From an uncultured Oxalobacteraceae bacterium (GTDB lineage: Bacteria > Pseudomonadota > Gammaproteobacteria > Burkholderiales > Burkholderiaceae): a stretch of 5,697 nucleotides of DNA. Position numbers and translations under genes: made by a program. Under the pieces are notes generated by a model. That model had not been told where the DNA came from, searched no databases, and saw only the letters and a list, made by a program, of their open reading frames with translations. The stretch is from the NCBI GenBank assembly GCA_946479255.1, contig CAMLFK010000306.1:1-5697 (forward strand). Direction: 5' to 3'. Shown piece by piece: positions 1 through 5,106 of this stretch; the stretch's first letter is position 1; each line of letters begins with the position of its first letter.

Positions 1-1387
1 CGCAGAAAGTGTAAGCGTGGAAGTCGATGGCGTCATCCTCGCGCAGCACATGACGTTGCCAGGGCTTGCTGATGATTTCGCGCGGCGCGTCGTTGCCGGG
101 TCTCTTCACCGTCATGTTCGCGCGAAGCCAAGCGAAGGCGGCGATGAACGGCTCACCAGCGGCGTTCGCGCCAAAGTGAATGTGCTTGGCCAGCGCAGGC
201 AGGAAGCGGCGCACGGTCTTGTACTTGGCGTCCAGTTCCTGGTAATACACGTTGTCGGTTGGCCGAATCAGTTTGTTCACGCCGGCAAGGGCCAGCGCGA
301 GCGCATCCGGCGAAATCCGCGCGAATAACTGTTTGCGCAACTCGGCATCCGGCACAGTGTCGTCCAGCAGCATCTGGCAGGCACTGGCAAGGGTGGCCGC
401 AGCTGCGTCAAGGTCTTTGAGCGATCGGAGGCGCGATTTTTTGTCGGCCTTCACCGCGTCACCAAAAAGCTCCCGCAGGATGACTTCGAGTACTTCCAAG
501 GCGTCGTCCTGAGCCGATGCTTCGAGGCAGTGTACAAACGCGACCAAGGTTGCCAGGCGGCGCAGCACCGGCAGACGCAGGATCGCGCTGGCCTTGGCGG
601 CGCCGGCGAACCGGGCCAGGGCGGCCACCCGTGTGGCCGGGATGCGCGTGGCGGCCGGCAACCGGATGCCAAGCTCGCGGACGGCTTGCAGCCGCATCAG
701 CGCCAGGCTCATTGACCGGCTGCTGGCCACCACCGGCCCGGTGCGCAGTCGGTCGAGCGGCGAATTACGACTGCCGCCAGATGAGACCAGAAGGCTCTCC
801 AGGCGCGTTTGCTGGTCCTGGCTGATCCCACTCCCAAGCGAGCGCCACAAGCGCTCTTCGACGCGGCTGCGCAGGCGCGCAACGTACCGTTCGAGCGTCG
901 TGCAGCCTGGCAGCAGTACCTTGTGCGTCACGAGCCATGTCGTGGCGCGCTCGAACAGCACGCTCGGCCGGTCGGTGCCGGTCCAGCAAAGCGCGTACAG
1001 CCACCGAGTAAGGCGAAAGGCGATCAAGGGTTCCGTAAATTCGACGTAGCCATAGCGCGCGCGAATTTCTATCGCATGCTGCCAGCGTTGTCGGCCGGTG
1101 CTGTAGGAGCTTGCTTTGTCCAGCGCCTCGATGCGCAGCTGCTTGGCCAGCGTCCGCAACACGGGCTGGGGCACGGCCAGCGGATCTTCCAAAAACGCGC
1201 CCAGGTAGCGCACTGTGCCCAGCTGGATGGCGAAGCCAAGCCGATTGTGCGCGCCGCGCTTCTCAGCGATTAGCGCATGGTCGGTGTCGTCCAGATGAAA
1301 GTACCGGGCGAGGTCATGGGGTGATGGAGAACTGGCGTAGCGGCCATAGTTCTCGCGCTGCGCGTCGGAAAGAAAGCTGACTGGCAT
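1..1387 (-). CDS. tnpA: Tn3-family transposase TnpA, N-terminal 462 codons (runs off left edge)
   Basis: This would be the cointegrate-forming transposase of a Tn3-family element. The frame is open without stop or frameshift from the ATG at 1387-1385 to the window edge; I translated it throughout. It begins MPVSFLSDAQRENYGRY and continues through the N-terminal DUF4158-type DNA-binding region (DLARYFHLDD, NRLGFAIQLGTVRYLGAFLEDP in two blocks). The middle has the family-typical blocks LDRLRTGP, ATLVAFVHCLEASAQDD and NDAPREIISKPW, and the visible part ends at AYTFC. Full-length members are about 1000 residues, so only the N-terminal half is seen; the RNase H-like DDE catalytic domain lies beyond the edge and cannot be checked. 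The start is supported by the match of MPVSFLS to family N-termini and by AGGA lying about 6 bases upstream. A resolvase remnant on the same strand ends 145 bases upstream, the tnpR-tnpA order of Tn21/Tn501-like elements. Confidence 0.93.
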   Translation of the reverse strand, partial: MPVSFLSDAQRENYGRYASSPSPHDLARYFHLDDTDHALIAEKRGAHNRLGFAIQLGTVRYLGAFLEDPLAVPQPVLRTLAKQLRIEALDKASSYSTGRQRWQHAIEIRARYGYVEFTEPLIAFRLTRWLYALCWTGTDRPSVLFERATTWLVTHKVLLPGCTTLERYVARLRSRVEERLWRSLGSGISQDQQTRLESLLVSSGGSRNSPLDRLRTGPVVASSRSMSLALMRLQAVRELGIRLPAATRIPATRVAALARFAGAAKASAILRLPVLRRLATLVAFVHCLEASAQDDALEVLEVILRELFGDAVKADKKSRLRSLKDLDAAAATLASACQMLLDDTVPDAELRKQLFARISPDALALALAGVNKLIRPTDNVYYQELDAKYKTVRRFLPALAKHIHFGANAAGEPFIAAFAWLRANMTVKRPGNDAPREIISKPWQRHVLREDDAIDFHAYTFC

Positions 1388-1415
1388 TTTTTTCCTGTAT
1401 GGCGGCAATCAGTGC

Positions 1416-1444
1416 ATTATGATTTGCCTTGGTGCATGGCCCAA
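1416..1444 (-). promoter_or_regulatory. candidate sigma70 promoter for tnpA
   Basis: On the minus strand TTGGGC (1444-1439) is followed after 17 bases by CATAAT (1421-1416). The -10 matches consensus at five of six positions and the -35 at only three. A transcript would start near 1409 and leave a leader of about 20 bases before the tnpA ATG. Spacing and place fit, but this is pattern matching only. Confidence 0.35.
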
Positions 1445-1512
1445 ATCCGCTTGACCTGGCCTTAACTGCACCCGGACAGCTCGGCGGTCTTCTGGATCGT
1501 ATTTTCGTTTTC
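1417..1512 (-). pseudogene. relic of a helix-turn-helix peptide, broken by an internal stop
   Basis: Between the resolvase stop and the tnpA start, a minus-strand frame different from both reads FENENTIQKTAELSGCS, then a TAA at 1464-1462, then GQVKRIWAMHQGKS and a final TAA at 1419-1417. Read across the internal stop it has the look of a recombinase or repressor C-terminal helix-turn-helix: an AELSGCS turn followed by a recognition-like helix GQVKRIW. Resolvases commonly end in such a helix-turn-helix. I infer a leftover C-terminus of a second tnpR-like gene, or the original end of this tnpR before rearrangement. The region also holds the proposed tnpA promoter, so it may survive for that reason. 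The assignment rests on residue pattern alone. Confidence 0.35.
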
Positions 1513-1532
1513 GAAAGGCGACAGCGTCCTTG

Positions 1533-1952
1533 TTAGGAGTCGGCTGCACTGGATTGGCTGAGCCTCTCCCGAACCCGCATGATGGACTGGCGAGTGGTGG
1601 CGTAGTCACGCGCCACCTTGGCTACGGACTCACCTTTCGCGAGGCGTTGCATTGCTTCGGCCTGCTGTACCTTGGTCAGCGCTGGCGGGCGACCCAGCGT
1701 CTTGCCTTCCGCCCGTGCGCGTGCAATACCCGCTTGGGTTCGCTCGATCAGCAAATCGCGCTCAAACTCAGCTACCGCATTCAACACGCTCATGGTCATC
1801 CTTCCGGCAGCGCTGGTCAGATCGACCCCGCCGAGCGCCAGGCAGTGCACACGAATAGCATCGGCCGCCAGCTGCTCTACTGTGGCACGCACATCCATGG
1901 CATTGCGGCCAAGTCGGTCCAGCTTGGTTACGATGAGTACATCGCCGGGGGT
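1533..1952 (-). pseudogene. tnpR: serine resolvase TnpR, N-terminally truncated
   Basis: This is the resolvase module of the chimera, about 139 residues. It keeps the two active-site arginines of the family (R365 and R368 in TKLDRLGRN, matching the R-x-x-R of gamma-delta resolvase), the dimer/E-helix (AVAEFERDLLIERTQAGIARARAEGK) in two blocks, the GRPPAL hinge and the helix-turn-helix (SVAKVARDYATTRQSIMRV). Tn3-type resolvases are about 185-200 residues; the first ~60, with the nucleophilic serine and its arginine, are replaced by IS66 sequence. The res site normally upstream of tnpR should be gone as well. It lies upstream of and co-directional with tnpA, so it is probably the original resolvase of that transposon. 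Confidence 0.85.
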
Positions 1953-3008
1953 CGACAGTTTTAGCAGGCGTTGCCGCAGCCATTGCTTCAGGTTGTCCAG
2001 CAGGGGACGCGCCTCTTGCTGACGGATGCGCTGGCGTTCGCCGCTGCTCATGCCGCGGATGCGCTCTTCTTTCACATACAGTTCACCGATCCGGCGTAGC
2101 GCTTCGGTCGTCGTTGGCGTGGCCTTGTTGACATGCAGATCGTGGATCTTGCGTCTTGCGTGCGCCATGCATGCGATTTCCCGGACCTCGCGTTCGCGGT
2201 AAATCTTATTGAAGCCTGCAAATGCGTCCGCTTGGAGGATGCCCTGGAAACCCTCCAGGTGCGCCTGCGGATGCAGCCCCTGGCGATTCGAGGAATACCC
2301 GAACCAGACGGCCGGAGCGTCCAGCGAAGCTGAACGGCGATCATCTCGCACATAAACCCACAAGCGTCCGGTCGTGGTCTGACCATTTCCCGGCGCCAGC
2401 ACTGGCATTGGCGTGTCGTCCACATGCAGCTTGTGCCCCGCCAGCACATAGCGGTGCAAGGCGACGACCAGTGGCCGCACCAGGACGCCGCACGCGCCCA
2501 TCCAGCGCGCCATGACGGAACGGTCCAGTTCCACACCTTGTCGTTCGAAGATTACGGATTGGTGATACAAAGGCTGGTGGTCGGCAAATTTCGCCACCGC
2601 GATGTGCGCCAGCAATGCCGGGCCGGCGATGCCGCGTTCAATTACCCGCTTCGGCGCAGGCCCTTGAACGATGCGGTCGCAGCAGGCACAAGCCCGCTTG
2701 CGCCGCACATGGCGGATCACCTTGAAGGCGCTGTTGATGAGGTCCATCTGTTCGGAAATGTCCTCGCCCAGCAGCTTGAGCTTGCCGCCGCACTCGGGGC
2801 AGGCTTGCTCCTCCGGCTCGAGTACATTTTCTTCGCGCGGCAAATGCGCCGGCAAAGGCTCGCGCTCGGGCTTTTTACGCGGTATAACAACATCCGCCGC
2901 TGGCGGCGCCTGGTCGGCTTCGCCTTCCTCGGCCATCAGGTCTTCCAGGCGGGTTTCCAGTTGCTCGATTTTGCGGTCGATCTTTTCGGACTTGCGGCCG
3001 AAATGCAT
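1533..3008 (-). CDS. chimeric ORF: IS66 TnpC body fused in frame to serine resolvase C-terminus (491 aa)
   Basis: A single open frame joins two unrelated recombination enzymes. Residues 1-351 are IS66-family TnpC: MHFGRKSEKIDR at the start, a zinc ribbon (C70-P-E-C73 and C107/C110), the DDE-domain aspartates in HVDDTP (D197/D198) and QADAFAGF (D261), then HARRKIHDLH and RPLLDNLKQWL. The third catalytic residue, the glutamate of the usual D-N-x-x-E-R block, and about 130 C-terminal residues are absent. From residue 353 the protein is a serine resolvase: PGDVLIVTKLDRLGRNAMD, AEFERDLLIERTQAGIARA, GRPPALT and a C-terminal helix-turn-helix. The catalytic serine region (YARVS type) is missing. The join is at 1952/1953. 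The ATG at 3008 is an internal methionine of the parental TnpC with no good ribosome site, so expression is doubtful. Neither enzyme should be active; most likely a deletion product. Confidence 0.85.
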   Translation of the reverse strand: MHFGRKSEKIDRKIEQLETRLEDLMAEEGEADQAPPAADVVIPRKKPEREPLPAHLPREENVLEPEEQACPECGGKLKLLGEDISEQMDLINSAFKVIRHVRRKRACACCDRIVQGPAPKRVIERGIAGPALLAHIAVAKFADHQPLYHQSVIFERQGVELDRSVMARWMGACGVLVRPLVVALHRYVLAGHKLHVDDTPMPVLAPGNGQTTTGRLWVYVRDDRRSASLDAPAVWFGYSSNRQGLHPQAHLEGFQGILQADAFAGFNKIYREREVREIACMAHARRKIHDLHVNKATPTTTEALRRIGELYVKEERIRGMSSGERQRIRQQEARPLLDNLKQWLRQRLLKLSTPGDVLIVTKLDRLGRNAMDVRATVEQLAADAIRVHCLALGGVDLTSAAGRMTMSVLNAVAEFERDLLIERTQAGIARARAEGKTLGRPPALTKVQQAEAMQRLAKGESVAKVARDYATTRQSIMRVRERLSQSSAADS

Positions 3009-3030
3009 GCGCCGGAGTTTGGCCAGTTGC
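1953..3030 (-). pseudogene. tnpC: IS66-family transposase TnpC, main fragment (lacks C-terminus)
   Basis: The fragment runs from QLAKLRRMHFGRKSEKID (QLAKLRR lies just upstream of the ATG at 3008, in the same frame) to RPLLDNLKQWLRQRLLKLS, where family members go on with a K-S-D block and the catalytic glutamate. In order it has the leucine-rich N-terminal coil, an acidic/charged linker, a zinc ribbon, and the first two-thirds of the DDE domain. Its own first 47 codons are found at 4132-4273, separated by a 1.1 kb insert. Intact IS66 TnpC is about 510-540 residues. The element is dead at both ends: 5' by insertion, 3' by fusion to the resolvase. No tnpA or tnpB of IS66 is recognisable upstream. 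Confidence 0.85.
3026..3030. repeat. 5-base direct repeat GTTGC, left copy
   Basis: It lies at the point where the main IS66 tnpC fragment stops matching. The identical pentamer at 4132-4136 starts the other fragment, in the same codon phase, as a target-site duplication would. Five bases is short enough to occur by chance, but the frame restoration supports it. Confidence 0.5.
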
Positions 3031-3215
3031 CTATCGAAAAATGGATCTTCCCGCGCCCAAACGAGGATTTGCGCTGATAGCTGCAGCAGCAGCTATTGAA
3101 AGTGCTGAGCGGAACTTTGAAGAACATCGTGGACAATAGCTGGGCAAATAATCGTGTATGGTCCTTCATTGCTCTTGAGGATGAAAGGTGCCGATGGCGT
3201 TTTCTAATTGTTCAA
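3031..3215. other. gene-poor tail of the insert, downstream of the XRE gene
   Basis: I find no convincing gene here. A 32-codon plus-strand frame (3041-3139, MDLPAPKRGFALIAAA...) and a minus-strand frame starting at 3169 (MKDHTRLFAQLL...) exist; the latter runs across the insert junction into tnpC in the wrong frame. Neither resembles a family I know. The stretch contains one perfect hairpin (3077-3096). Confidence 0.4.
3077..3096. other. perfect 8-bp inverted repeat (hairpin)
   Basis: ATAGCTGC (3077-3084), loop AGCA, GCAGCTAT (3089-3096). Two further G:T pairs could extend it on one strand. No T-run follows on either strand, so it is not a typical intrinsic terminator. It lies in the tail of the insert. 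Confidence 0.4.
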
Positions 3216-3239
3216 CCGGCGTAGCACAAGCTACGTCGG
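3216..3239 (-). terminator. stem-loop overlapping the XRE stop codon, possible terminator
   Basis: Arms CCGGCGTAGC (3216-3225) and GCTACGTCGG (3230-3239) pair over 10 positions around a 4-base loop. One position is imperfect: A opposite C in the minus transcript, G:U in a plus transcript. The XRE stop codon lies inside it. The minus strand continues TTGAACAATTAG, which is only mildly T-rich, so termination or 3'-end protection is possible but not clear. Confidence 0.35.
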
Positions 3240-3449
3240 ATCATCTTCTTGCGCATACGCCAGAATATCCCCCGGCTGGCAGGCGAGGACCTCGCAGATC
3301 TTCTCAAGCGTATCGAAGCGGATGGCCTTGGCTTTGCCAGTCTTCAACACCGACAGGTTCTGCGGCGTGATGTCGACCAACTCCGCCAGGGTGTTGAGGC
3401 GCATTTTTCGCTGCGCCAGCACGACGTCCAGATTAACGATGACCGGCAT
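3231..3449 (-). CDS. small XRE-family regulator (YozG-like helix-turn-helix), 72 aa
   Basis: This is a single-domain Cro/C1-type DNA-binding protein. The helix-turn-helix lies at about residues 17-40 (LNTLAELVDITPQNLSVLKTGKA), written here as TLAELVDIT for helix 2 and PQNLSVLKTG for helix 3. It is followed by RFDTLEKICEVLACQPGDIL, the closing helices typical of the YozG-like branch, and a short acidic tail. Length fits that branch (about 65-75 residues). The gene starts 9 bases after the stop of the DUF2975 gene, with a GGAG ribosome site in the gap, so the two are co-transcribed and probably translationally linked. XRE proteins of this type are repeatedly found next to DUF2975 membrane proteins, for example yozG-yoaS of Bacillus subtilis. 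By analogy it probably controls its own operon through the palindromic site at 4090-4114. The membrane partner may modulate it, but that is inference. Confidence 0.9.
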   Translation of the reverse strand: MPVIVNLDVVLAQRKMRLNTLAELVDITPQNLSVLKTGKAKAIRFDTLEKICEVLACQPGDILAYAQEDDPT

Positions 3450-3458
3450 GTCGGCTCC

Positions 3459-4022
3459 TCATATCGTCAGCTCGGATTCTTCGTTGAGCTCGGTTCCAAT
3501 TTCCAAAGCCCAAAGCAGTACGTACATCAAGCCAAAGAACATCAAGCCGTAAAACAAGGACTCGGTCAACCTGGGAATGAGTGGAAGGAATGGATAGATG
3601 GCCAGGCCGAAGAAGTTGCCGTCCATGAAGAGGAGGCAAATCTGCCTTAACAACAGCGGCCCCACGAGTGAGCCCAGCCCAAAAAGAATTGCTTTTCTCG
3701 CCGCCAGCAATGCCCTGCGATTAAAGATTTCACCTTTGCTGAAGTATGTCATCAACTCGCACGCATAGCGCACAGAGAACAGAGGCAGCAGCGAGAACGC
3801 GAGGATAACGACCGAGATCCCGATTTTCTGCATCGGTGGCATTTGGATTGTCTTGATGACGGGATTGATGGCCGGCTCGATCGGAAGCATGCCAATGAGT
3901 GGAAAAACGAAGGCGGTAAGTACCATCAGCACAAGGCCGTAGCTGATCACGGACAGGAAGAGCCGAAGGTATCCGCTCAGCTTCTTGATTCGTTCAATCC
4001 GCTTGTGCCGCGTGACGTTCAT
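3459..4022 (-). CDS. DUF2975 family four-helix membrane protein, 187 aa
   Basis: An integral inner-membrane protein of unknown function. Hydrophobic segments lie at about residues 21-46, 68-90, 112-133 and 151-175. The short basic N-terminus (MNVTRHKRIERIKK) suggests a cytoplasmic N-terminus. Family marks are the cytosolic loop MTYFSKGEIFNRR after helix 2 and the end ALEIGTELNEESELTI, which matches the usual conserved acidic C-terminus of DUF2975 proteins. Length is normal. The ATG at 4022 follows GGAGA by about 7 bases. It is first in an operon with the XRE gene. The coding sequence is visibly less GC-rich than tnpA or the xylosidase, which fits acquisition. Members are thought to be partners of their XRE neighbour, but the activity is not established and I do not assign one. 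Confidence 0.88.
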   Translation of the reverse strand: MNVTRHKRIERIKKLSGYLRLFLSVISYGLVLMVLTAFVFPLIGMLPIEPAINPVIKTIQMPPMQKIGISVVILAFSLLPLFSVRYACELMTYFSKGEIFNRRALLAARKAILFGLGSLVGPLLLRQICLLFMDGNFFGLAIYPFLPLIPRLTESLFYGLMFFGLMYVLLWALEIGTELNEESELTI

Positions 4023-4058
4023 TGATTTCTCCGTAAGTGGGGTGTTCGAAAGTGAGCC

Positions 4059-4086
4059 ATCTTATCATCGAAGGCTTGAAAAGCAA
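4059..4086 (-). promoter_or_regulatory. candidate promoter of the DUF2975-XRE operon
   Basis: On the minus strand TTGCTT (4086-4081) is followed after 16 bases by TAAGAT (4064-4059). Transcription would start near 4052, giving a leader of about 30 bases that ends in GGAGAAATCA before the ATG. The -35 lies 3 bases from the symmetrical site at 4090-4114. Confidence 0.5.
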
Positions 4087-4089
4087 TGT

Positions 4090-4114
4090 ATTTTTATCGT
4101 TTATCGATAAAAAT
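4090..4114. promoter_or_regulatory. symmetrical AT-rich site, candidate operator for the XRE regulator
   Basis: ATTTTTATCG (4090-4099) and CGATAAAAAT (4105-4114) are perfect 10-base inverted arms around TTTAT. A second perfect palindrome, TTTATCGATAAA (4100-4111), overlaps it, so two staggered dyads share half-sites of the form TTATCG. It sits immediately upstream of the -35 of the operon whose second gene encodes a DNA-binding XRE protein. It also overlaps the last codons and stop of the truncated tnpC ORF by chance of the insertion. An operator role is inference from symmetry and place. Confidence 0.5.
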
Positions 4115-4273
4115 AAAGTGATTATCGCGATGTTGCGCCTGATGCTTGAGCTGTTCAATCTCCAGACTACGGATACTCAGCGCCTGCTCCAGCGTCGATA
4201 CCGTATCGCGCAATTGCAGTACCAGCGGCTTGAGCGCTTCGGGATCGTCTGGCAGAGTGGAGGAAATCGGCAT
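4094..4273 (-). pseudogene. tnpC: IS66-family transposase TnpC, N-terminal fragment
   Basis: This 59-codon frame begins MPISSTLPDDPEALKPLVL and continues with RDTVSTLEQALSIRSLEIEQLKHQAQ, the standard N-terminus of IS66 TnpC: a LPDDPEALK block and a leucine-rich coil. Homology stops after residue 47 (codon at 4135-4133); the last residues HRDNHFIFIDKR come from the inserted segment and end at TAA 4096-4094. It continues directly in frame into the main tnpC fragment at 3026 leftward if the insert is removed, which argues that both pieces belong to one gene. It is non-functional as it stands. Confidence 0.8.
4132..4136. repeat. 5-base direct repeat GTTGC, right copy
   Basis: Partner of the copy at 3026-3030, at the edge of the N-terminal tnpC fragment. 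Confidence 0.5.
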
Positions 4274-4294
4274 GCGCGGAGTTTACGCGCATGC
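4270..4294 (-). promoter_or_regulatory. hairpin that contains the tnpC start codon
   Basis: GCATGCGCG (4270-4278) and CGCGCATGC (4286-4294) are perfect 9-base inverted arms separated by 7 bases. In the minus-strand transcript the tnpC AUG (4273-4271) lies in the 3' arm, so the start codon would be paired. No Shine-Dalgarno sequence is seen upstream. This could limit tnpC translation unless ribosomes arrive from an upstream gene; the role is inferred. Confidence 0.45.
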
Positions 4295-4532
4295 GGCAGG
4301 GTGGGGTTCCAGGTGCACTGGAACGGCCAACCGGGTTAAGGAGTGGGATTGTCAGGCTGAGGTCATAGGTGCGCGCGTGGGAGCGTCAGCAATGCCTGAA
4401 TCGACCCTACTCTGACGCATTTGATACCGCGTACTTGACGCCCGGTTGAGGTGTACTTCAGTTGGAAAGTGGTCAGCCGGAGGCTGGAAGCCCCACGATT
4501 GGGCTTAACCGTGTTTTCCGTTCAACTGCGCC
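4295..4532. other. stretch without a recognisable gene; degenerate repeats
   Basis: In an intact IS66 the 3' end of tnpB would lie here, upstream of tnpC. I cannot recognise it in any frame; one minus-strand frame has CTWNPTL near 4310, faintly like a TnpB end. Two similar plus-strand strings, at 4311-4334 (AGGTGCACTGGAACGGCCAA then CCGG) and 4449-4480 (AGGTGTACTTCAGTTGGAAA then GTGGTCAGCCGG), look like diverged direct repeats. A 7-base inverted pair, GCGTCAG at 4383 and CTGACGC at 4412, is also present. Confidence 0.3.
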
Positions 4533-4622
4533 TCAGACCCCAAAATCTGCGATCGCGACAAGTTGTGGCTCAGGCTGGTTGGAAAGCTTCTGGATCAGCA
4601 GTGCACGCTTACTTGCATCCAT
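4533..4622 (-). pseudogene. 29-codon remnant of a hypothetical gene
   Basis: The frame reads MDASKRALLIQKLSNQPEP and then QLVAIADFGV before TGA. An AAAGG ribosome site lies about 7 bases upstream of the ATG. The QPEPxLV pattern near the N-terminus reminds me of a family of small hypothetical proteins that continue into a longer acidic domain. If so, this is only its first 27 or so residues, cut off by rearrangement. The similarity is from memory and weak, and the frame could be accidental. Confidence 0.3.
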
Positions 4623-4628
4623 TTATCG

Positions 4629-5106
4629 ACCTTTGCCGGTGTGCTCCGGCTGGAATGAGATAAACTCGCCGCAGGCAGCAGCGGCAGCTTCGGCGCCGCC
4701 CTGGCCTGCCTTCTGGCCGCCTGCCTTGTACGGCTTTTCGGCCAGCTTCACCGAGCGATGCCTGGGCGCGGTGCCGCCGCTGGCCCTGCCCACCGCGGCC
4801 ATATGGCCGGCCAGCGCGCCGGGTGCGCAAGCCTGGATGGCGGTGGCCTGCTCGGCCATTCCATAGGTGCTGTTCTTCCGCCTGATCGGGCGCATCGGCG
4901 CATCGCACACCATCGCCGTCACCTTCATGATCCCGGCTTTCGGCGTGCTGTGGGGCGTGCCGTTCCTGGACGACGTGCTCACACCAGCCCTGGTGGCAGG
5001 CTGCGCGGTCATCCTGGCCGGGACCGCGTTTGCCACCGGCGTGCTGGGCCAGGATCAGCTGCGCCGGATAGGCGCCCGTTGGCTTACTTTGCTGCGCTCA
5101 GCTTAA
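4629..5106 (+). pseudogene. EamA/DMT-family transporter, decayed C-terminal half
   Basis: Drug/metabolite transporters have ten membrane helices in two EamA repeats and about 300 residues; only about 160 codons of the second half remain. Recognisable pieces in order are TFAGVLRLE, then an in-frame TGA at 4656, GSFGAALACLLAACL, a +1 shift at about 4723-4728, and YGFSASFTERCLGAVPPLAL. Next come AQAWMAVACSAIP, a TAG at 4864 where the family has a tyrosine codon, and VLFFRLIGRIGASHTIAVTF with MIPAFGVLWGV and AGCAVILAGTAFATGVL. The last segment (4867-5103) is the well-kept final helices. The spacing between PPLAL and AQAW is short, suggesting a deletion as well. The 3' end overlaps the convergent xylosidase stop by 23 bases. 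Two stops, one frameshift and a missing N-terminal half make it a pseudogene. Confidence 0.8.

Follow-up and report, generated by a model that had tools for sequence, protein, structure and literature searches.

A DUF2975/XRE gene pair within an interrupted IS66 tnpC gene, with a conserved regulator and an operator-like site

How does a gene pair for a DUF2975-type membrane protein and a small XRE regulator come to lie inside the transposase gene of an IS66 element, and does it move as a unit? In the window (the whole stretch of 5,697 nucleotides that was analysed), about 1.1 kb of unrelated DNA is located between the start of an IS66 tnpC gene (4273 to ~4139) and its resumption (at ~3030–3026). 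This agrees with an earlier note on this DNA, which had placed the two genes inside one tnpC. The order on the minus strand is a 239-bp miniature element (4541–4303), the start of tnpC (4273 to ~4139), the insert, the rest of tnpC with a resolvase part (3008–1533), and tnpA (1408–2). The features are listed below, with the strand where one applies.

2–1408, minus strand: Tn3-family tnpA, N-terminal 469 residues, continuing beyond the window edge (NF033527)
1533–3008, minus strand: remainder of tnpC, continuing in frame into the C-terminal portion of a serine resolvase (HTH_7)
3026–3030: left copy of GTTGC, possibly native tnpC sequence
3027–4138, minus strand: insert as placed by the standard-length join, 1112 bp (tnpC length pattern, profile score, junction simulation)
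3216–3239, minus strand: hairpin across the end of the XRE gene, with no U-run after it
3231–3449, minus strand: XRE/HTH_26 regulator, 72 residues (PF13443 match; related loci)
3459–4022, minus strand: DUF2975-type membrane protein, 187 residues (PF11188 match, relatives, structure model)
4095–4110: operator-like palindrome TTATCGN5CGATA, in front of the DUF2975 gene (spaced motif conserved)
4132–4136: right copy of GTTGC, possibly present by chance
4139–4273, minus strand: N-terminal piece of IS66 tnpC (MPISST...EIEQLKHQ), best relative P0097; the homology may stop a few bases sooner (4144)
4303–4541: 239-bp miniature element with two 38-bp Tn3-type inverted repeats (4303–4340 and 4504–4541)

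A split tnpC gene among Tn3-family parts

The two pieces of tnpC have the same best relative. P0097 is ranked first of 119 both with the N-terminal piece (43 residues) and with the C-terminal piece (340 residues), and the pieces are complementary to within 0–6 bases, depending on the choice of join. As they share this relative and can be rejoined so closely, the pieces are taken to be one split gene, and, judged from the sequence, a single insertion into one IS66 tnpC appears to be real. The G+C content of the insert is 0.509, versus 0.567 and 0.619 for the two tnpC pieces and 0.638 for tnpA. The closest relatives of the DUF2975 protein are P0001, P0002 and P0003 (95, 81 and 75%), while the relatives of TnpC are 72–75% identical at best (among the best 120 of 4011 matches). 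The values of 95 and 81% against 72–75%, among the matches listed, suggest separate histories for the insert and its flanks.

Like other members of the IS66 family, the TnpC of the window has the zf-IS66, LZ and DDE domains, together with the conserved N-terminal coiled coil. Unlike them, its gene is interrupted, its missing C-terminal part has been exchanged for that of a resolvase, and no tnpB is seen upstream. The IS66 homology ends ~30 bases ahead of the tnpC start (by eye), where the miniature element borders.

The frame at 1533–3008 (minus strand) is an in-frame chimera, in which ~350 residues of IS66 TnpC are followed by the C-terminal portion of a serine resolvase with its HTH. The tnpC portion runs to about residue 351 of the frame, and the chimera is the only protein with a resolvase domain among the best 120 of 4011 TnpC matches. 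The tnpA frame matches NF033527 with an E value of 2.4e-108 and 363 bits, under the cut-off of 500 bits that applies to the complete protein. The surroundings of the insert are a mosaic, made up of the Tn3 tnpA, the TnpC-resolvase chimera and the miniature element with its Tn3-type ends.

The miniature element adjoins the truncated IS66, not the DUF2975 insert. Its 38-bp ends are identical to each other at 28/38 positions, and to a Tn3 repeat at 24/38 and 29/38 positions. The core of the element shares 76% identity with a stretch of plasmid pUO1 that adjoins a Tn3-like end; this end was recognised by eye, and a pattern search for it gave nothing. No 5-base duplication flanks the element, and the flanks (CAGGGT and AAAATC) differ. 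By its sequence, it fits the description of TIMEs, the Tn3-derived inverted-repeat miniature elements. As far as the available portions of two papers describe them (PMC4133298, PMC13367494), it is like a TIME in its 239 bp, with 38-bp Tn3-type ends within a few hundred bases, and unlike one in the absence of matching 5-base flanks. A TIME without duplications, from pLM8P2, is included in the same portion of the first paper (PMC4133298).

To the right of the miniature element there are a remnant of an EamA transporter gene, just under the Pfam cut-off, and a frame for a glycosyl hydrolase of family 39. The EamA-type remnant (~4640–5106, plus strand) looks broken, with an in-frame TAG at 4864–4866, and its 5′ part was not seen beside the miniature element.

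The ends of the insert

The pentamer GTTGC is present at 3026–3030 and again at 4132–4136. The earlier note had set the limits of the insert at 3031–4131 plus one GTTGC, and their removal does join the tnpC pieces in frame, giving ...LKHQAQLAKLRRM. This join reads EIEQL-KHQAQLAKLRRMH-FGRKSEK, with 13 residues between the two anchors. In comparison, the spacing from EIEQL to FGRKSEK is 11 residues in 116/116 measurable TnpC proteins, the length pattern having matched 116 of the 120 proteins that are the best of 4011 matches. The four outside the pattern are P0096 (the window's own protein), P0154, P0156 and P0183. By eye, P0154 is of equal length, with SKK in place of SEK, and the other three are without the site. 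The spacing is also 11 residues in all six measurable proteins out of ten short ones, and in four genome loci that are more distant and whose site can be read (L005, L015, L028 and L033). The wrong anchor was matched in L029 and L031, and no length was taken from either locus.

A profile of the 116 relatives gives 717.7 bits for the standard-length join (insert 3027–4138) and 712.0 bits for the GTTGC join, a difference of less than 6 bits. With two residues more than the measured relatives and a lower profile score, the GTTGC junction is not confirmed as the ancestral site. The earlier note had itself cautioned that the two extra residues of its join could mean a junction a few bases off and a fortuitous repeat.

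In simulated junctions (20,000 per setting), an in-phase 5-base repeat arises in 2.0, 4.6 and 7.6% of the cases with a slack of 6, 8 and 10 bases, respectively, so the repeat could have arisen by chance, though this is not likely. The left copy, which is GCAACTGG on the coding strand, may be native to tnpC, because the residues L-Q-L encoded by CTG-CAA-CTG give GCAACTGG. If this copy is old tnpC sequence, the insert may be located at 3031–4143. The ends of the insert are placed to ~8 bases and are uncertain among 3027–4138, 3031–4136 and 3031–4143. As for the 5-base flanking repeat described earlier, GTTGC is indeed found at both ends; taken as a duplication, it implies two extra residues, with a chance rate of 2–8%, and a real target-site duplication appears doubtful from these comparisons.

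No mobility gene is seen among the frames and domain matches of the insert, and there are no terminal inverted repeats at its ends, the best pairing having 8/20 positions versus a random-pair mean of 8.6. Both observations had been made in the earlier note. Ends of the integron-cassette kind were rejected by eye, because GTTRRRY does not match the junctions. A 32-residue frame at the left end of the insert, MDLPAPKRGFALIAAAAAIESAERNFEEHRGQ (3041–3139, plus strand), has no plasmid match at an E value of 10.

Second copies of the insert were sought in several collections. With the insert and its flanks as the query, none was found among the 20 listed of 34 matching plasmid records. The best places there cover 6–13% of the query and fall either on the XRE gene or on the flanking IS66 sequence, with 67.6–72.7% for the XRE ones. 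Distant DUF2975/HTH pairs are nevertheless present on plasmids: in a Streptomyces plasmid record (H5), an annotated HTH regulator adjoins a DUF2975 gene. The DUF2975 protein as a query has no match in plasmids. The phage search gave no copy of the insert, its one match being an unannotated 4522-base record that aligns with 13% of the query, at the XRE gene, and viral contigs have no match for DUF2975 and none for XRE. Among the GTDB genome contigs there is no second copy, only four distant loci (36–39%). The left end of the insert (3026–3235) has one 27-base match in 200 genomes, which is not meaningful. Neither an empty site nor a second insertion was seen in the collections searched.

The DUF2975 protein of the insert is rare in the IS66-bearing lineages sampled. 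With the protein of the window as the query, it is found in 0/300 genomes of the order, and in 1/349 genomes of one family, where a weak 81-residue match is located in a 665-residue frame (E value of 5.8e-4). With P0003 as the query, it is found in 0/274 genomes of the class. None of the three sets held a known positive, so the absences in the class and the order are weak evidence.

These observations do not support the proposal of a non-autonomous mobile unit, as the insert has no terminal inverted repeats, its flanking repeat needs two extra residues, and no second copy was found in the collections searched.

The gene pair and its operator-like site

The DUF2975 protein matches PF11188 with an E value of 9.3e-5 and 22.8 bits, under the curated cut-off of 27 bits, and many of its relatives carry PF11188. 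The structure model (pLDDT 73.6) contains four long helices, and a comparison with the Protein Data Bank gave no matches with E values up to 0.001. The C-terminal tail, LEIG..LNEESELT, is kept in sixteen aligned relatives and is slightly varied in L040 and L042, which are more distant. The XRE gene starts 9 bases past the stop codon of the DUF2975 gene. Its product matches PF13443 with an E value of 3.5e-21, and has two weak matches to solved structures (E values of 0.0066 and 0.0074). In NCBIfam it has a weak match to the HTH regulator VanU, far under the cut-off (21.8 versus 150 bits).

The DUF2975 alignment matches 9 of 120 genomes sampled from the family to which the Cellvibrio genome G001 belongs. 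These nine loci and L004 make up a set of ten gammaproteobacterial loci (L004, L006 and L035–L042; L001, L002 and L003 are excluded as repeats of L006, L035 and L037). The XRE gene follows the DUF2975 gene in 10/10 of them. The XRE proteins are identical to that of the window at 54–62 of 64 residues, and their partner DUF2975 proteins are only 29–44% identical over the aligned residues, a strong contrast.

The palindrome TTATCGN5CGATA is located upstream of the DUF2975 gene in the window and in eight of the ten related loci. L004 and L036, each with one degenerate half, are scored as misses. All 15 strand-wise matches to the palindrome in the ten loci (88,794 strand-bases) are at those eight sites. 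The version in the window, TTATCGATAAACGATA, is the same as that in L038. From this arrangement we infer that the cargo is an autoregulated membrane-protein/repressor operon, with XRE acting on the putative operator.

A scan of 3000–4300 with a promoter pattern found no consensus promoter (0 versus 0.7 expected). The 215-nt region with the hairpin is not clearly more stable than its shuffled versions (z of −0.81). A comparison with Rfam gave no match. The DUF2975, XRE, TnpC-resolvase and tnpA genes are co-oriented (1–4022 of the window, minus strand). Because of this orientation, and because no U-run follows the hairpin where the XRE gene ends, a promoter of the insert could read into the transposition genes.

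The cargo is an already known kind of gene pair. YoaS of B. subtilis is presumably a DUF2975 protein. Table 2 of Makarova et al. 2009, in the portion of the survey available here, contains 32 pairs of Xre with a YoaS-like membrane protein, a likely permease (PMC2701414). According to the same portion, three kinds of Xre/membrane-protein pair were excluded, since at that time no type II toxin-antitoxin system was known to have a membrane component. In answer to a reviewer, the authors granted that such pairs could be novel toxin-antitoxin systems (PMC2701414). The pair in the window is like the Xre/YoaS-like pairs and the Cellvibrio operons in that a membrane protein is paired with a small XRE regulator, and unlike both in its location within an IS66 transposase gene.

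Origin and meaning of the insert

The account that we consider probable, with some reserve, is that a complete foreign operon, consisting of the operator-like site, DUF2975 and XRE, entered one IS66 tnpC gene a single time, within its coiled-coil part. The target gene would already have been a decaying part of a Tn3-family mosaic. Entry would have been by illegitimate recombination, of the end-joining or microhomology type, and not as a transposable unit with defined ends; an illegitimate event is preferred to a mobile one because the insert has no defined ends. XRE would bind TTATCGN5CGATA and repress its own operon. The DUF2975 protein would be located in the membrane, with its C-terminal tail as the probable contact, through which a membrane signal may relieve or hold the repressor.

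The model of the earlier note, a non-autonomous transposable unit (3031–4131) with a GTTGC duplication and a transposase supplied in trans, for example by the Tn3 family, is unlikely. The pentamer at both ends, the in-frame join, the low frequency of such repeats in the simulations (2–8%) and the Tn3-family parts within the window are in its favour. It requires, however, two extra residues that are not seen in the 116 measurable relatives (among the best 120 of 4011), its profile score is lower (712.0 versus 717.7 bits), and the ends of the insert have neither inverted repeats nor, by eye, the GGGG...TTAAG type of repeat present at 4303 and 4541. Moreover, a second copy was not found in the collections searched. 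The gene pair could also have been carried on the Tn3/IS66 mosaic as a stabiliser, with a membrane toxin held by an XRE antitoxin. The tight two-gene operon, the very conserved XRE protein and the annotated DUF2975/HTH pair on the Streptomyces plasmid are consistent with such a system, and the survey authors thought that membrane-protein pairs could be novel systems; the survey nevertheless put such pairs aside, with no membrane-component type II system then known (both points from the available portion of PMC2701414), and the pair is also found in 9/120 sampled genomes of the family of the Cellvibrio genome. We regard a stabiliser as rather unlikely. Quite improbable is the broader idea that DUF2975/XRE pairs are portable membrane-toxin/sensor modules, which spread as short units with fixed ends together with decayed transposons and replace the usual toxin-antitoxin passengers of Tn3-family elements.

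Two further explanations concern the integrity of the locus itself. A chimera of the metagenome assembly is very unlikely. In its favour is that a single contig, of 13,868 bases, is on record for the TnpC-resolvase protein. Against it, a 59-residue frame over the right junction (P0216) has records on two contigs, so that an error of assembly is less likely at this junction; the check covers the right end alone. The least probable explanation is that two separate IS66 remnants came to flank the operon, by chance or by recombination between IS66 copies, with no insertion into tnpC. The window is indeed a mosaic of broken elements, but the two tnpC pieces are complementary to within 0–6 bases and have the same first-ranked relative of 119, which is not what two unrelated IS66 remnants should show.

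At present the locus is one insertion within a transposon graveyard. Fixed ends at other sites, should the unit have them, would make it a new type of passenger on bacterial transposons and an entry point to DUF2975, a family named by only two papers in the literature searched. The unusual features of the find are the strongly conserved XRE regulator and the operator-like site. The lasting point is this very conserved regulator with its common palindrome, which gives a testable lead on the control of DUF2975/XRE operons.
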